Positions 994 to 37,135 of a stretch of 64,000 nucleotides of DNA are shown one piece after another. The notes below the pieces were generated by a model. The model searched no databases. It saw nothing but the letters and a program-made list of their open reading frames with translations, and was not told the origin of the DNA. Position 1 is the first letter of the stretch. Each line of letters begins with the position of its first letter. Origin of the DNA: Thermodesulfobacteriota bacterium (GTDB taxonomy: Bacteria > Desulfobacterota > GWC2-55-46); assembly GCA_030583865.1 (NCBI GenBank), contig CP129479.1:2318819-2382818 (forward strand), written 5' to 3'. The translations under genes were made by a program, and so were the position numbers.

Positions 994-1131
994 GCGGACC
1001 TCCATTTACGGTCTCAAATGCCGGAAATGAGAAAACCCGGCCTTCTCTTCCGAAGGACGGGTCACGGGCAAGCCATGCGCCACAATCATGCTTCCAGCGC
1101 CTGCCGACCCTCTCCCTCGGAAGGTCTTCGA

Positions 1132-1288
1132 AAAAGCTCCGGCAGGTCTCCTGGCTCGCGGGTCTTCCTACTCCCTCGCCCTTCCCGGCCAAGGCCAGTG
1201 GATCCGCAAGGTTTCGTCGCCGCTCACAGTTGCGGGGCAGCTCCCGTTTTTACGGGAATTCCCTATTGGCCCGGCTGAGAGGCAGAAG
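1132..1288 (-). promoter_or_regulatory. Cobalamin (AdoCbl) riboswitch upstream of cobO-cobU
   Basis: On the minus strand the region contains the conserved blocks of the cobalamin aptamer in order: GCTGCCCCGCAACTGTGAGC (about 1226-1245), a CACTGG segment near 1198, GGGAAGG near 1180, and the B12 box AGCCAGGAGACCTGCC at about 1138-1153. Order and spacing match the known family. It lies about 140 bases upstream of the cobO start, so ligand binding probably shuts off cobO-cobU transcription or translation. The exact expression platform was not worked out. Confidence 0.92.
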
Positions 1289-1289
1289 A

Positions 1290-1380
1290 CTTTTGAGAGA
1301 ACCTTTTTGTAAAAAGGTTCTCTCAAACTCTTTTTGAAGGGGGTCTGGGGGAAACTTTCTACAGAAAGTTTCCCCCAAAA
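1290..1380. repeat. Two adjacent long hairpins upstream of the cobalamin riboswitch
   Basis: Two near-perfect inverted repeats lie side by side. One has arms GAGAGAACCTTTTT and AAAAAGGTTCTCTC around 1294-1325. The other has arms GGGGGAAACTTTCT and AGAAAGTTTCCCCC at about 1348-1377. The second is followed by a third partial AAAAGGTTCTT. No coding capacity is evident. They may end transcription approaching from either side or be a repetitive extragenic element. No second copy was noticed in this window. Confidence 0.6.
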
Positions 1381-30608: not shown

Positions 30609-31901
30609 CTACCTGAACGGGTCTTTCATTACGATCGCGTCTTTCCTGTTAGCGCCAACAGAGACTATGACGGCCTCCACCCCTGAGAGCTCTTCAAGCC
30701 GCCTTACGTAATCCTGCGCCTTGCCCGGCAGCCTCTCGAAACTCGTCACGCCCTGCGTGGGCGCGCGCCAGCCCTCCATCTCCTCGTAGACCGGCTCGCA
30801 GCCGGAAAGGACCGAGCCTTCGGTCGGGAAGTCGTCTATCAACTTCCCCTTGTACCTGTAGCCGGTGCAGACCTTTATCTTCTCGAGCTTGTCAAGCACG
30901 TCGAGCTTGGTTATCACGAGGCCGTCAAGCCCGTTGACCCTGGCAGCGTACCGCAAGGCCACCGCGTCGAACCAGCCGCACCTCCTCGGCCTGCCGGTCG
31001 TCGCGCCGTACTCGCCGCCCTGCTCGCGGAGCCATTCGGCCTCGGCCCCGGAAAGCTCGGTCGGAAAGGGCCCCTCGCCCACCCTCGTGCAGTACGCCTT
31101 TGTTATGCCTATGACCTTGTCTATCCTTGAAGGCCCCATGCCGCTCCCGGTGGCCGCGCCGCCCGCGACAGTGCTGCTGGACGTGACGTAGGGATACGTC
31201 CCGTGGTCTATGTCGAGGAGAGTGCCCTGGGCGCCCTCGAAGAGTATCTTTTTGCCTTTGGACGAGGCGGACCAGAGGAACCTTGACGTATCGCTTATGA
31301 AAGGCGCGATAGCCTTTGCATAGGACATGTACGCCTCATGGACCTGGCCGGCCTCGAAGCCTTCCTCTCCCAGTATGGCGCTTATGAAATGGTTCTTCTC
31401 GACGAGGTTGGCGTCGAGCTTCTTCCTGAATGAGTCGGCGTCGAGGAGGTCTCCGCACTTAATGCCGCACCTTGCGACCTTGTCCTCGTAGGCCGGGCCG
31501 ATGCCGCGCCCGGTCGTGCCAATTTTCGCCGCGCCCCTCAGCTTTTCACGCGCTATGTCGAGCATCTTGTGATAGGGCATTATGAGGTGCGCGTCCTTGC
31601 TTATAAGGAGGTCCTCGGGCCTGAACATGCCTTTAGCCTTCAGGAGCTCTATCTCCTTCACGAGCACCTCCGGGTCTAGCACCACGCCCGCGCCGATCAC
31701 GCAGGTCTTTCCCGGATGGAGCACGCCGGACGGAAGGAGGTGGAATATGTACTTTTCCTCGCCGACGATGACGGTATGACCCGCGTTATTCCCGCCCTGG
31801 AAGCGGACGACCACGTCCGCGCTCTCCGTTAGTATGTCGACTATCTTCCCCTTGCCCTCGTCCCCCCACTGGGCGCCTACTATTACTATGTTCCTGGCCA
31901 T
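30609..31901 (-). CDS. purA: Adenylosuccinate synthetase
   Basis: A 430-residue PurA: VIVGAQWGDEGKGKIVD is the GTP loop, RFQGGNNAGHTV the IMP/Asp region, GIGPAYEDKVAR, FEGAQGTLLDIDHGTYPYVTSS and GRPRRCGWFDAVALRYA are all canonical. It converts IMP and aspartate to adenylosuccinate. ATG 31901 is set by homology and a GGAAGG upstream. It follows hisZ by 26 bases on the same strand, a known arrangement linking purine and histidine pathways. Confidence 0.97.
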   Translation of the reverse strand: MARNIVIVGAQWGDEGKGKIVDILTESADVVVRFQGGNNAGHTVIVGEEKYIFHLLPSGVLHPGKTCVIGAGVVLDPEVLVKEIELLKAKGMFRPEDLLISKDAHLIMPYHKMLDIAREKLRGAAKIGTTGRGIGPAYEDKVARCGIKCGDLLDADSFRKKLDANLVEKNHFISAILGEEGFEAGQVHEAYMSYAKAIAPFISDTSRFLWSASSKGKKILFEGAQGTLLDIDHGTYPYVTSSSTVAGGAATGSGMGPSRIDKVIGITKAYCTRVGEGPFPTELSGAEAEWLREQGGEYGATTGRPRRCGWFDAVALRYAARVNGLDGLVITKLDVLDKLEKIKVCTGYRYKGKLIDDFPTEGSVLSGCEPVYEEMEGWRAPTQGVTSFERLPGKAQDYVRRLEELSGVEAVIVSVGANRKDAIVMKDPFR

Positions 31902-31927: not shown

Positions 31928-32932
31928 TCATTTTCCGCCGGGCCTGGACTCCAGGCCGGACGAGAGCTGCTCGACGTCGAAGGCGAAGCCGGTGGCCCTG
32001 CACGGATAACCGTACTTCTCAAGCAGGCTGTCGTACCTGCCGCCCGAGAGTATGGGCTTTCCGATGCCCGGGGCGAAGCCTTCGAATATGATGCCCGTGT
32101 AATAGTCGAAGCCCCTGACCTCGCCTAGGTCTATGGTTATCCAGTCCTTGAGCCCTTTGGACGCTATCGCCTCAACGACGCTCCTCAGGTAATCGAGCGA
32201 TGCAAGGGCCGAAGGGTCTTTCGTGAGAGACGCGGCCTTTTCTATGACCTCTTCCTCGCCGTAGAAGTTGGTGAGGTTCATAAGGAGCTCCTTGTCGCCC
32301 GCGCCTATGCTGCCGGTCCCGCGAAGGAGCGCTTCCAGCCCCGAGGTGTCCTTTTTCTCGAGGAGCCCCTGCACGGCCTTCCTCGATCCCTCGTCAAAAT
32401 GGCTCTCAAGGACCTTCTTGAGGAACCCGACGTCGCCGATGTCGATCTTGAAGTCCTTGAGGCCCACGGACTTAAGGGCCTCGATGGCCATTATAATCAT
32501 CCTGGCGTCGTCTTCCGGGGAGGCCTCGGAGGATATGTACTCCGCCCCTATCTGCAGGACCTCCCTTTTCCTTCCGTCCCTCGCGTCCTGGTACCTTACG
32601 ACGCTTTCGTTATAGCAGAGCTTCAAGGGGAGCGCGTGAGCGCGCATCCTGGTAGCGGCCACCCTCGCTATCTGGGGCGTTATGTCCGGCCTTATGGCTA
32701 TGACGCGGCCGGTGGGCGGGTCTATGAACTTTATGACGCTCTCCAGGAGGTCGGCCCCTGCCCCGATGGAAAGGACGTCCGCGTACTCGAGGAGCGGCGT
32801 TATCACCTTCCTGAAGCCGTACCTTGAGAAAACCGAGAGTATCCCGGACTCGACTGCCCCGATCCTCTCGGCCTCGTCAGGCAATATGTCTCTGACGCCC
32901 TGCGGCAGGGATATGGTTGGCGTATCTATCAT
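31928..32932 (-). CDS. hisZ: ATP phosphoribosyltransferase regulatory subunit (HisRS-like)
   Basis: A 334-residue paralogue of histidyl-tRNA synthetase catalytic core: LPQGVRDILPDEAERI, PLLEYADVL, IRPDITPQIARVAATRM, RYQDARDGRKREVLQIGAEY and GGRYDSLLEKYG. It lacks the anticodon-binding domain of full HisS and is too short (HisS is about 420). It pairs with short HisG (11964-12638) to form the active, histidine-inhibited enzyme. ATG 32932 gives the usual N-terminus. Confidence 0.93.
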   Translation of the reverse strand: MIDTPTISLPQGVRDILPDEAERIGAVESGILSVFSRYGFRKVITPLLEYADVLSIGAGADLLESVIKFIDPPTGRVIAIRPDITPQIARVAATRMRAHALPLKLCYNESVVRYQDARDGRKREVLQIGAEYISSEASPEDDARMIIMAIEALKSVGLKDFKIDIGDVGFLKKVLESHFDEGSRKAVQGLLEKKDTSGLEALLRGTGSIGAGDKELLMNLTNFYGEEEVIEKAASLTKDPSALASLDYLRSVVEAIASKGLKDWITIDLGEVRGFDYYTGIIFEGFAPGIGKPILSGGRYDSLLEKYGYPCRATGFAFDVEQLSSGLESRPGGK

Positions 32933-32943
32933 CTTTTTCCCGG

Positions 32944-32979
32944 AAAAAAGCCGTGTTACGCATAACATAACACGGCTTT
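32944..32979 (-). terminator. Terminator of the serine operon
   Basis: On the minus strand AAAGCCGTGTTA, loop TGTTATGCG, TAACACGGC and TTTTTT, located between serA and hisZ. It separates the serine operon from hisZ-purA. Confidence 0.88.
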
Positions 32980-33022: not shown

Positions 33023-34606
33023 TCAGAGCTCCACCACGTCCGCCTTAAGCATGTGGGGGAGCTTGAGTATCTTCTCTATCAGGCCCTTGGATATGGGCGT
33101 ATCAACGCTCCAGACCGATACGGCCGCGCCGCCGACCGCCTGCCTGCCGAGGTGGAGCCTGGCGACGTTTATGTTGTTCGCGGCAAGGAGCGTGCCCACG
33201 TTCCCGATGACGCCCGGCTTGTCCTCGTTCTGGAGAAGGAGGAGGTACCCTTCCGGCACGGCGTCGAGGAGGAACTTGTCTATCCTCACTATCCGCGGCT
33301 CCTTCTTGCCGAAGAGCGCTCCCTCGACCACGTTCTCCTCGTCCTTGGTGCCGACCTTTATGGTAACGGAGCTTGCGAAGTCGGTGGACCTCGAGCTCTT
33401 TATCTCGACCACCTTTATCCCGCGCTCCTTTGCGACGAACGGGGCGTTCACGAAATTGACGTACATGTCGAGCACCTGGTCGAGGAGGCCTTTAAGACAC
33501 GCTATTGTTATGGGCGCGACGTCATAGTTTACGACGTCGCCGCTGTACTCGATAGTGACCTCCTCAATGCCGCCCTTAAGTATCTGCCCCTGGAAGCTCC
33601 CGAGCTTCTCGCCGAGTGAGATATAGGGCCCGAGGGCAGCGAGGAGCTCGGCCGGGATGGAAGGCACGTTCACAGCGTTCCTTATTGTGCCGTTCACGAG
33701 GTAGTCGACGATCTGCTCGGCTATGGCGACCGCAACGCTTTCCTGGGCCTCCTGGGTGGATGCGCCGAGGTGCGGGGTGAGGATAACCTCTTCGAGGTTG
33801 AGAAGCGGGTTGTCGGCCGGGGTGGGCTCCTTCTCGAAGACGTCCATTGCCGCGCCCGAGACTATCTTGTCCTTTATGGCCTGGGCGAGGTCGGCCTCGC
33901 TCACGATGCCGCCCCTTGCGCAGTTTATTATCTTAACGCCCTTCTTCATCTTCCGGAAGGCGTCGGCGTTCACTACGTTCCTGGTCTCGTTCGTAAGCGG
34001 CACGTGTATGGAGATGAAGTCGCTCCTCCTGAAGAGCTCGTCCATGGTGACGAGGGCGATGCCCATCTTGTCGGCGGCCTCCTCGGATATGAAGGGGTCG
34101 TAGGCTATGACGTTCATCCTGAGGCCCAGGGCCCTGCTCGCGACGACGCTCCCGATATTGCCCACGCCGAGGATGCCGAGGGTCTTGCCGGTTATTTCGG
34201 TCCCCTCGAACTTCTTCTTCTCCCATTCGCCCTTCCTCATGGAAGCGGTAGCCTGGGGTATCTTCCGAGCAAGCGCCATCATCATGGCGATCGCGTGCTC
34301 TGCCGTAGTTACGGTGTTGCCGCCAGGGGTGTTCATGACGACTATGCCCTTTTTGGTGGCGGCGACCGTGTCTATGTTGTCCACACCCGTGCCGGCGCGG
34401 CCTATGACCTTCAAGTTCTCCGCTGCCTCGATTATCTCGGCGGTCGCCTTCGTGGCGCTCCTTACGACAAGGCCGTGGTAGTCCTTTATCTTCGCCTTGA
34501 GCTCATCGGGCTTCAAGTTGGTTATTACGTCCACTTCGAGGCCGGGGGTGTTTTTGAGGACGTCCACGGCCCTGGAAGACATGCTGTCGCTTATGAGTAC
34601 CTTCAT
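33023..34606 (-). CDS. serA: D-3-phosphoglycerate dehydrogenase
   Basis: A 527-residue long-form SerA. N-terminal half: VRSATKATAEIIEAAENLKVIGRAGTGVDNID, NAD site LGILGVGNIGSVVA, catalytic region NCARGGIVSE and LTPHLGASTQEAQ with His. Then the allosteric substrate-binding (ASB) insert and a C-terminal ACT domain (about 450-525: VPEGYLLLLQNEDKPGVIGNVG). It starts serine synthesis and is probably inhibited by serine. One base separates it from the aminotransferase stop. Confidence 0.97.
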   Translation of the reverse strand: MKVLISDSMSSRAVDVLKNTPGLEVDVITNLKPDELKAKIKDYHGLVVRSATKATAEIIEAAENLKVIGRAGTGVDNIDTVAATKKGIVVMNTPGGNTVTTAEHAIAMMMALARKIPQATASMRKGEWEKKKFEGTEITGKTLGILGVGNIGSVVASRALGLRMNVIAYDPFISEEAADKMGIALVTMDELFRRSDFISIHVPLTNETRNVVNADAFRKMKKGVKIINCARGGIVSEADLAQAIKDKIVSGAAMDVFEKEPTPADNPLLNLEEVILTPHLGASTQEAQESVAVAIAEQIVDYLVNGTIRNAVNVPSIPAELLAALGPYISLGEKLGSFQGQILKGGIEEVTIEYSGDVVNYDVAPITIACLKGLLDQVLDMYVNFVNAPFVAKERGIKVVEIKSSRSTDFASSVTIKVGTKDEENVVEGALFGKKEPRIVRIDKFLLDAVPEGYLLLLQNEDKPGVIGNVGTLLAANNINVARLHLGRQAVGGAAVSVWSVDTPISKGLIEKILKLPHMLKADVVEL

Positions 34607-34607
34607 A

Positions 34608-35753
34608 TCACTTGTATCCTTCCGCGAGAATTTGAAGGGCGGCAGCAACACCCTTCCCGTACTGGGCCTTGTACCCGAACTTGTTGAGGGCTACTTCAAG
34701 GGCCGAGACGGCCGTTACGACGTCGAAGGTGTCCACGTACCCGAGGTGCGCGACCCTGACTATCTTGCCCTTCAAGTGGTCCTGGCCGCCGGCCATCGTG
34801 ACGCCCATGACGTCCCTCATGTATTTCACGAGCTTTCCGCCTTCGACCCCCTCGGGGACGAAAATGCCGGTGGTTGCATTGGAAGGGCTCTCGGGGGCGA
34901 GGAGCTTAAGCCCCAGGGCAACGGCCGCGGCCCTTGTGGCCCTGGCTAATCTATCGTGCCTCGCGAATACGTTCTGGAGCCCTTCCTCCTTTATCATAAG
35001 AAGGGCCTGCCTCAGGCCGGTTATGAGGGAGACGGCCGGGGTATATGCAGATGTATTGTCCTTGAGGTTCTTCCTCTCTTTCTTGAAGTCGAAATAGAAC
35101 CTGGGGCACTTGGCGGTCTCCTGGAACCTCCAGGCCTTCTCCGAAAGGGCCACGAAAGCAAGCCCGGGCGGGAGCATGAACGCCTTCTGCGAGCCGGATA
35201 CGAGGACGTCTATGCCCCAATCGTCCATCGGGAGGTCGAATACGCCGACGCCGGTTATGCCGTCGACTATGAGAAGGCATTCCCTGTCCTTCGTAAGGGC
35301 CGCAAGCTCCTTTGTCGGGTGGGCTACTGTCGTCGAGGTCTCGCTCGCCTGGACCAGCACTGCCCGTGACTTCGGGTTTTCGTCAAGGACCTTCTTGACG
35401 ACAGCCGGGTCAACTGCCTTGCCCCATTCGACGTTTATCCAGTGGGCCTTCAGGCCGTAGGCCTCGGAGATCTTCCCCCACCTCTCGCCGAATTTTCCGC
35501 CGTTTATTACGACCACCTCGTCACCGGGGGAGAAGAGGTTCGTGATAGAGCCTTCCATGGCGCCGGTCCCGGAGGCGGCCAGCATGAGGACGTCCTGTTT
35601 GGTCTGGAAAACGTATTTAAGGAGCTCGGCCGTCTCCTTGAAGACCTCCGAAAACTGGGGGGTCCTGTGGTGGATTATGGGCTGGGCCATCGCAAGGAGC
35701 GCCGACTCGGGCACAGGTGTAGGGCCGGGCGCCAGAAGGTAATTCTTTCTCAT
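34608..35753 (-). CDS. Class V aminotransferase (serine-pyruvate/alanine-glyoxylate type; likely phosphoserine aminotransferase role)
   Basis: A 381-residue PLP enzyme: LAPGPTPVPESALLAMAQPIIHHRTPQF is the alanine-glyoxylate aminotransferase N-terminus, GTGAMEGSI binds the phosphate, VDGITGVGVFD contains the Asp, and Lys190 in VSGSQKAFMLPPGLAF is the Schiff-base lysine. Because it is co-transcribed with serA and no serC is seen, it may act as the phosphohydroxypyruvate transaminase; a serine-pyruvate or serine-glyoxylate role remains possible. AAGGGAGGAAT is its ribosome site. Confidence 0.92.
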   Translation of the reverse strand: MRKNYLLAPGPTPVPESALLAMAQPIIHHRTPQFSEVFKETAELLKYVFQTKQDVLMLAASGTGAMEGSITNLFSPGDEVVVINGGKFGERWGKISEAYGLKAHWINVEWGKAVDPAVVKKVLDENPKSRAVLVQASETSTTVAHPTKELAALTKDRECLLIVDGITGVGVFDLPMDDWGIDVLVSGSQKAFMLPPGLAFVALSEKAWRFQETAKCPRFYFDFKKERKNLKDNTSAYTPAVSLITGLRQALLMIKEEGLQNVFARHDRLARATRAAAVALGLKLLAPESPSNATTGIFVPEGVEGGKLVKYMRDVMGVTMAGGQDHLKGKIVRVAHLGYVDTFDVVTAVSALEVALNKFGYKAQYGKGVAAALQILAEGYK

Positions 35754-35917
35754 GACTAAGATTCCTCCCTTTCATCTTTATAAAAATAAATTAAGTATCA
35801 GAACACAAGAAGGCCGCCAGCCCCACCCATAAATGGCGGCATACCGGCTGCGCCACCTAAGGGGCGGCCCTAACCGCCTGATCATAAAGGCATTTTATGG
35901 CCCTTCTGCAGCCAAAA
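35754..35917 (-). promoter_or_regulatory. Leader of the serine operon downstream of the RNA terminator
   Basis: The minus-strand sequence between the U-tract (35918-35926) and the aminotransferase start contains a small hairpin (CATAAA ATGCC TTTATG) and GC-rich blocks GGCGGTTAGGGCCGCCCC and GGTGGCGCAGCCGG, with a further GCCGCCA...GGCGGC pairing. No separate promoter is obvious. If the upstream RNA is part of the same transcript this is the continuation after attenuation. Confidence 0.4.
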
Positions 35918-36056
35918 AAAACCGCCTGGAGCCGTTACATACTACCTCGGAAGAGGTAAATGCGATGCCCAGACGGTCGACAAGTATATGATCCTTCGCT
36001 CCCCGGTGGTCCCCCACCTTGATTCCGTCAGTCACGAAGGAGACTGCCTCTGTATG
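35918..36056 (-). ncRNA. Putative structured RNA (~140 nt) upstream of the serine operon: small RNA or attenuated leader
   Basis: A minus-strand promoter (TTGACA 36092-36087, TAGTAT 36068-36063, 18-base spacer) predicts a start near 36056. The transcript has a stem TCCTTCG...CGAAGGA enclosing the hairpin GGTGG-GGGA-CCACC. It ends with CCGTCTGG...CCAGGCGG, enclosing ACCTC-TTCC-GAGGT, followed by eight U residues. No reading frame is evident. It does not fit a 6S RNA closing stem, and I could not match it to a riboswitch class. Confidence 0.58.
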
Positions 36057-36062
36057 GGGTCT

Positions 36063-36092
36063 ATACTAATCTCACTCCGGGGTTTTTGTCAA
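36063..36092 (-). promoter_or_regulatory. Promoter of the putative RNA / serine operon
   Basis: Consensus -35 TTGACA (36092-36087) and -10 TAGTAT (36068-36063), spacer 18 bases, reading leftward. Confidence 0.62.
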
Positions 36093-36101
36093 GCGGGATT
36101 T

Positions 36102-36219
36102 TGGGTCCTTGCCGGACGGGCAATTCCACTCCCGTACGCATTTCTGGAAATCAGCTCCTGACCTGTTTTGCACAATATGCGCTTGACGTTACCTTTGGGT
36201 CCTCGCCGGACGGGCAATT
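36102..36219. repeat. Pair of 26-bp direct repeats with one mismatch
   Basis: TTTGGGTCCTTGCCGGACGG GCAATT at 36102-36127 recurs at 36194-36219 (C for T at one place), 92 bases apart. A related inverted CCGATTGCCCGGC follows near 36250. The rest of 36104-36427 shows no gene. Confidence 0.6.
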
Positions 36220-36427
36220 GCTCATGGTGCGGTTTTGTTGAAACCGGATTCCGATTGCCCGGCCGCACAGAGGCCTTGACCTTGCCTCCGGGCACCGGGC
36301 CGGAACCAGGCGGGCCCGCCAGCCGCTTCCCCTTGCTTTCCTTTTGGTTTTGCTTACGCGGACGAAAAGGGTTATATTGGAGACGGCCCTCGGGGCCCGA
36401 GATTCAGCAACCCTCGAAGGACGGTAT

Positions 36428-37135
36428 GTGGTGCCAAAAGGCGTAACTGTAGTGCTCCCGACCTATAACGAAAGGGAGAACATAGGGAAGCTCGTCCGCG
36501 GGATACTAGATTCCGTAAAGGCCGACGTCGAGATAATAGTCGTTGACGACGACTCGAAAGACCTCACATGGAAGGCGGTGGAGGATATGAACCTGCCTTC
36601 GGTCCGGGTCATAAGGAGGGTCGGCGAGAACGGGCTCACCTCGGCGATAAAGCGCGGCATAGACGAAAGCCGCAATGAGACCGTGGTCTGGATGGACGCG
36701 GACCTCTCCATGCCGCCGGAGAAGATAAACGACCTCCTGGCCTGCCTTGAGAGCCGCGACATAGCCATAGGCTCGCGGTACGTCCCAGGCGGCAGGGACA
36801 TGGGGGACTCGATGACCGCGCGCTTCATGAGCCGCCTACTCGGCATAATCGCCAAGACTGTCCTGAATGTCCCGGTGAACGACATGAACAGCGGCTTTGT
36901 CGCAACGAAAAAAAGGATAGTCAAGGAGCTCGGGCTGAGGGGCGATTACGGCGAATACTGCCTCGACTTCCTCTACAGGGCCCATAAGAAAGGATATAGC
37001 ATAGCCGAGGCGCCGTATGTGTGCGTGCCGCGGCTTAAGGGCGTATCCAAGACCGCCACCGGCCTCCTGGGCTTTTTCTGGCGCGGGAGAAAGTACATAT
37101 ACGCCATAATGAAGCTGCGGCTTTCCCGGATATGA
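36428..37135 (+). CDS. Family 2 glycosyltransferase, polyprenyl-phosphate mannosyl/glucosyltransferase-like
   Basis: A 235-residue GT2 enzyme: GVTVVLPTYNERENIGKLV, VVDDDSKD, and the DxD motif in WMDADLSMPP, followed by IGSRYVPGG and MNSGFVATKKRI, as in DPM1-like dolichol/undecaprenol-phosphate sugar transferases. No C-terminal membrane segment is present. GTG 36428 follows GAAGGA by seven bases. It could make a lipid-linked sugar for the tandem GT-C enzymes at 40984-44573, which use such donors. Confidence 0.87.
   Translation: MVPKGVTVVLPTYNERENIGKLVRGILDSVKADVEIIVVDDDSKDLTWKAVEDMNLPSVRVIRRVGENGLTSAIKRGIDESRNETVVWMDADLSMPPEKINDLLACLESRDIAIGSRYVPGGRDMGDSMTARFMSRLLGIIAKTVLNVPVNDMNSGFVATKKRIVKELGLRGDYGEYCLDFLYRAHKKGYSIAEAPYVCVPRLKGVSKTATGLLGFFWRGRKYIYAIMKLRLSRI

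Follow-up and report, generated by a model that had tools for sequence, protein, structure and literature searches.

The serine-purine operon and its leader

The window analysed here, a 64,000-nucleotide stretch of a Thermodesulfobacteriota genome (contig CP129479.1), carries on its minus strand an operon with the gene order class-V aminotransferase, serA, hisZ, purA. The first gene (34608-35753), preceded by a ribosome-binding site read from the sequence as AGGGAGG (35764-35770), encodes a class-V aminotransferase (Pfam PF00266) whose best NCBIfam match, BhcA, falls below cut-off; NCBIfam does not class it as a canonical SerC, and it is best described, from its position beside serA, as serC-like. 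It is followed by serA, for 3-phosphoglycerate dehydrogenase (33023-34606, start inferred; TIGR01327, 664.6 bits, cut-off 454), hisZ, for the ATP phosphoribosyltransferase regulatory subunit (31928-32968; TIGR00443, 309.6 bits, cut-off 271.65), and purA, for adenylosuccinate synthase (30609-31901, start inferred; NF002223, 645.1 bits, cut-off 402, and also TIGR00184). What an earlier, sequence-only reading had called the serA operon does contain serA, but as its second gene.

Upstream of the operon, the promoter scan identified a sigma-70-type promoter, TTGACA-18-TAGTAT (36063-36092, minus strand), which agrees with the consensus at 10 of 12 positions and is the sole one detected within 35000-37000. 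The leader transcript region folds at -60.6 kcal/mol, compared with -45.8 (sd 3.7) for shuffled sequences (z -4.0), and the terminator hairpin alone (35990-35910) at -32.2 compared with -18.2 (z -4.6). The consensus promoter, transcript and terminator with U8 that had been read from the letters are thus all present, on the minus strand, and the 165-base spacing claimed for them agrees with the distance from the noted terminator end (35918) to the ATG of the first gene (35753). We also confirmed the claimed lack of a second promoter, as the scan detected none reaching 9/12 between terminator and first gene in the window genome. A second structured element in the stretch 35915-35750 was considered and rejected, its fold z being only -1.1 and the stretch varying, by eye, even among close relatives.

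Just upstream of the riboswitch promoter lies a direct repeat, GGTCCTNGCCGGACGGGCAATT, at 36104-36125 and 36198-36219; another exact copy (C1:2111327) and a copy with two mismatches are present in the genome, and every copy lies on the same strand. The window also contains a cobalamin riboswitch (1124-1302, minus strand, 100.9 bits), and the genes that follow it look like cobO (466-1005) and cobU (2-466), names given from translation reading only.

A conserved ZMP/ZTP aptamer

What is the RNA that precedes the operon? Its sequence places it in a known class, the ZTP (ZMP/ZTP, pfl) riboswitches. Indeed, the Rfam model RF01750 matches 36045-35960 on the minus strand with 62.8 bits, the gathering score being 39, and the alignment is full-length (model positions 1-86 of 86). 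The conserved blocks CUGACGGAA, AGGUGG, CCACCGGGGAGCG and GACCGUCUGGGC are all present in it. The aptamer (35960-36045) has the P1-junction-P2 with its conserved core and, after a linker, the P3 stem-loop, whose pseudoknot reaches back to the P1/P2 junction. The purine and one-carbon gene context of the class is supplied, by proximity, by serA and purA. When 35700-36150 was searched against all of Rfam 15, with E up to 1, RF01750 was the only family returned, and the glycine riboswitch, T-box and 6S RNA gave no match. The sequence-only reading had rightly seen no 6S RNA here, and the search sets that candidate aside. It had also seen no known riboswitch class, and had named an Rfam hit to one as grounds for giving up its proposal; such a hit is what we obtained, and a new riboswitch class is ruled out. 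Its suggestion of a new riboswitch or attenuator controlling serine synthesis survives as riboswitch control of a serine operon and fails on "new" and "unidentified". The ligand of the window aptamer is presumably ZMP/ZTP.

The pseudoknot joins GACGG (36025-36029) to CCGUC in the P3 loop (35976-35972), and covaries in relatives. This analysis drew on 115 RF01750 matches in genomes of the class and the phylum, of which 105 were parsed and 100 were distinct; all counts over these 100 sequences ignore kinship among them. The five pseudoknot pairs are formed in 98-100 of the 100, with two-sided changes at pair 2 (A-U or G-C; at most 96 with shuffled partners) and at pair 5 (G-C, U-A or A-U; at most 89). 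Furthermore, P1 pairs 4-7 are formed in 88-97 sequences, more than in any shuffle, with as many as six kinds of base pair. The relatives do keep the conserved structure on which the earlier proposal depended.

RF01750 is carried by 47 of 63 genomes of the window's class. In an even draw of the phylum it was found in 25 of 395 genomes, 14 of these 25 within the class, which makes it rare in the rest of the phylum. Named genomes with pattern matches are nearly all groundwater Deltaproteobacteria MAGs (e.g. GWA2_55_10, GWB2_55_19, UBA5799), the exceptions being one labelled Nitrospirae and one "uncultured bacterium". Among the 40 relatives searched first, 17 loci combine the aptamer with serC-serA, and the ser operon arrangement is present throughout the window's family. 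Three loci outside the class (L169-L171) likewise have serA and purA, and mostly serC as well, behind the switch; the other carriers there have it mostly before glyA or fhs, which are classic ZTP riboswitch targets. Long inverted-repeat inserts were observed in the P2 hairpin or the preceding junction of some relatives' aptamers (L102, L100, L151), which retain the conserved core.

One pseudoknot pair of the window RNA departs from the Rfam consensus, with G-C changed to A-U on both sides. Could the same fold have acquired another ligand, such as a serine-, redox- or energy-linked metabolite? The change is class-wide, and a variant aptamer of this kind would explain the unusual genes found behind sister copies, rnf and icd-acl among them. 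However, the A-U change preserves the pair and is shared by fhs-linked copies outside the class, the remaining conserved core is that of the Rfam consensus, and most RF01750 scores still lie at 50-68 bits. We therefore consider a change of ligand very unlikely.

Terminator overlap and the predicted switch

The intrinsic terminator (35914-35978, minus strand), located by folding and strand-complementarity analysis, is built from a strand of the aptamer itself. When the full leader is folded, the structure of lowest energy has P3 broken and GACCGUCUGG (35978-35969) paired with CCAGGCGGUU (35929-35920), followed by U8 (35921-35914). The complementarity between the terminator arm and GACCGUCUGGGC reaches 11 bp in the window, and 6-12 bp in 20 of 20 ser-type loci with the CCGYCUGG strand, three loci lacking this strand. 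When every locus with a T-run is considered, pairing between this aptamer strand and the terminator base averages 9.1 bp, compared with 5.2 for shuffled arms, a contrast somewhat flattered by picking the best T-run at each locus. As the terminator consumes the P3/pseudoknot strand, the bound aptamer and the terminator are mutually exclusive.

Our preferred reading, to which we give a probability of about 0.94, is that this ZTP riboswitch is a transcriptional ON switch for the serC-like gene, serA, hisZ and purA. Its basis is family membership, pseudoknot covariation, terminator overlap and conserved gene order; we infer the ON direction from the terminator overlap alone, and the metabolic logic is likewise a proposal. 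Without ligand, the 3' arm of the terminator would displace the P3/pseudoknot strand of the aptamer, the hairpin with U8 would form and transcription would stop. When 10-formyl-THF is short, ZMP/ZTP would accumulate and stabilise the pseudoknotted aptamer, no terminator would form and the polymerase would enter the operon. The extra serine could then yield one-carbon units via GlyA, and hence 10-formyl-THF, allowing AICAR to be cleared. ZTP switches are described as usually ON (PMC2864571, PMC9481103), and Weinberg et al. (2010) pointed out that pfl RNAs are overlapped by terminators, an arrangement in which ligand should increase expression (PMC2864571). The opposite direction, in which ligand binding halts transcription of the operon, has a precedent in the rare ZTP OFF switches predicted before moeA (PMC9481103), but with a terminator that uses the P3/pseudoknot strand itself we find it scarcely credible.

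The leader has its own promoter and a strong terminator, features that would also suit a constitutive or otherwise regulated attenuator, or a stand-alone small RNA with its end at 35914, in either case with a decayed aptamer. Such a reading is extremely unlikely: the aptamer core is intact and covarying, the operon linkage is conserved among relatives, and the scan found no second promoter before the operon. In particular, the independent small RNA entertained by the sequence-only reading is hard to reconcile with an element kept together with the serC-serA-hisZ-purA order in many genomes, and with a terminator that uses the aptamer strand. Of the 23 ser-type loci, 21 have a promoter before the aptamer that the same scan accepts; a second, downstream promoter was accepted in 12 of the 89 loci of the ser, icd and rnf types.

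An ON switch would fit the metabolism of the genome. The ZTP riboswitch is an RNA sensor of one-carbon shortage. The window genome encodes GlyA (SHMT) and PurH; neither formate-THF ligase (Fhs) nor a CdhC-type acetyl-CoA synthase was detected in it, both families being found in control genomes. On the basis of these four families, serine via GlyA is probably the main one-carbon source, a situation in which sensing a lack of 10-formyl-THF would be apt. HisZ and PurA, too, act in the metabolic neighbourhood of ZMP, a purine intermediate that also arises as a by-product of histidine synthesis. Since ZTP accumulates on 10-formyl-THF shortage (PMC9481103), switching on serine synthesis would be a sensible response.

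Sister copies and comparison with known systems

The window genome carries three RF01750 copies in all, each above cut-off. One sister (L034; C1:1401201-1401288, minus) precedes monomeric isocitrate dehydrogenase and ATP-citrate lyase, and the other (L033; C1:1528919-1529006, minus) precedes rnfCDGE. Each of these placements is retained across the window's class, with icd/acl copies in six of its families and rnf copies in three. The genes behind the 115 loci, with representatives confirmed by NCBIfam and Pfam, are icd/acl (36), rnf (30), ser (23), pntAB/ppa (5), CPA2 antiporter (5), sucCD (4), glyA (4), fhs (2), kup (1) and other (5). Again, the terminator overlaps P3 by at least 6 bp, in 36 of 36 icd and 30 of 30 rnf loci.

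Several of these loci have features of their own. In another family of the class, ZTP riboswitches precede sucCD, which adds further TCA-cycle steps (L145, L151, L152, L154), and at some sucCD loci a 2-oxoacid:acceptor oxidoreductase subunit comes next. Unusual targets for the riboswitch class are the Kup potassium transporter (L143) and CPA2 cation/proton antiporters (L078, L082, L176, L181, L185). In two icd-type copies, L034 and that of a close relative (L066), a hairpin-like stretch (TTTGGGAGAACC...GGTTCTCTCAAA in L034) lies upstream of the aptamer, where others have the promoter; no promoter passed the scan upstream of the L034 aptamer.

The window element is an ordinary class member, and its identification is a routine gain in annotation: a serine/purine operon of an uncultured lineage now has a named regulator. 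What is unexpected, and matters more, is that copies lie upstream of energy and carbon-fixation genes across the lineage. We consider it slightly better than an even bet that in this uncultured deltaproteobacterial class riboswitches place not only serine and purine genes but also genes of carbon fixation and energy metabolism (ATP-citrate lyase, isocitrate dehydrogenase, succinyl-CoA ligase, Rnf, transhydrogenase) under the control of the ZTP alarmone, an arrangement that would parallel, in bacteria, the role of ZMP as an energy signal. Should reverse-TCA and Rnf genes indeed be under ZTP riboswitch control here, ZTP would report on carbon and energy more broadly than a folate-stress alarmone does. 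Elsewhere the window genome encodes a 74% identical homologue of the alpha subunit of the above 2-oxoacid:acceptor oxidoreductase, yet it also encodes citrate synthase, so that its use of the reverse TCA cycle is only putative. The literature searched, to which the founding 2015 ZTP paper (Kim et al.) did not belong, yielded nothing relevant linking ZTP riboswitches with Rnf, citrate lyase/reverse-TCA genes or Deltaproteobacteria, and we claim no priority.

The serine link is not new, since in Bacillus and Oceanobacillus a ZTP switch with a downstream glycine riboswitch is published before the gene starting serine synthesis from 3-phosphoglycerate (PMC9481103); the window locus shares the ZTP switch before such a gene, but has no glycine aptamer. 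A mechanistic parallel is the pfl ZTP riboswitch of Clostridium beijerinckii, which works by strand displacement: without ligand an invader displaces P3 and the pseudoknot to form the terminator, whereas ligand blocks the invader and expression rises (PMC10085676). The proposed switch would act in the same way, in a different host and on different genes. Compared with RF01750 (the pfl motif) as a whole, the window RNA shares the covariance-model match, P1-P2-P3, the pseudoknot, the terminator overlapping P3 and the purine/one-carbon gene context; it differs in pseudoknot pair 2, which is A-U instead of the G-C of the consensus, and in the company of its class, where copies also precede icd-acl, rnf, sucCD, pntAB/ppa, cpa2 and kup.
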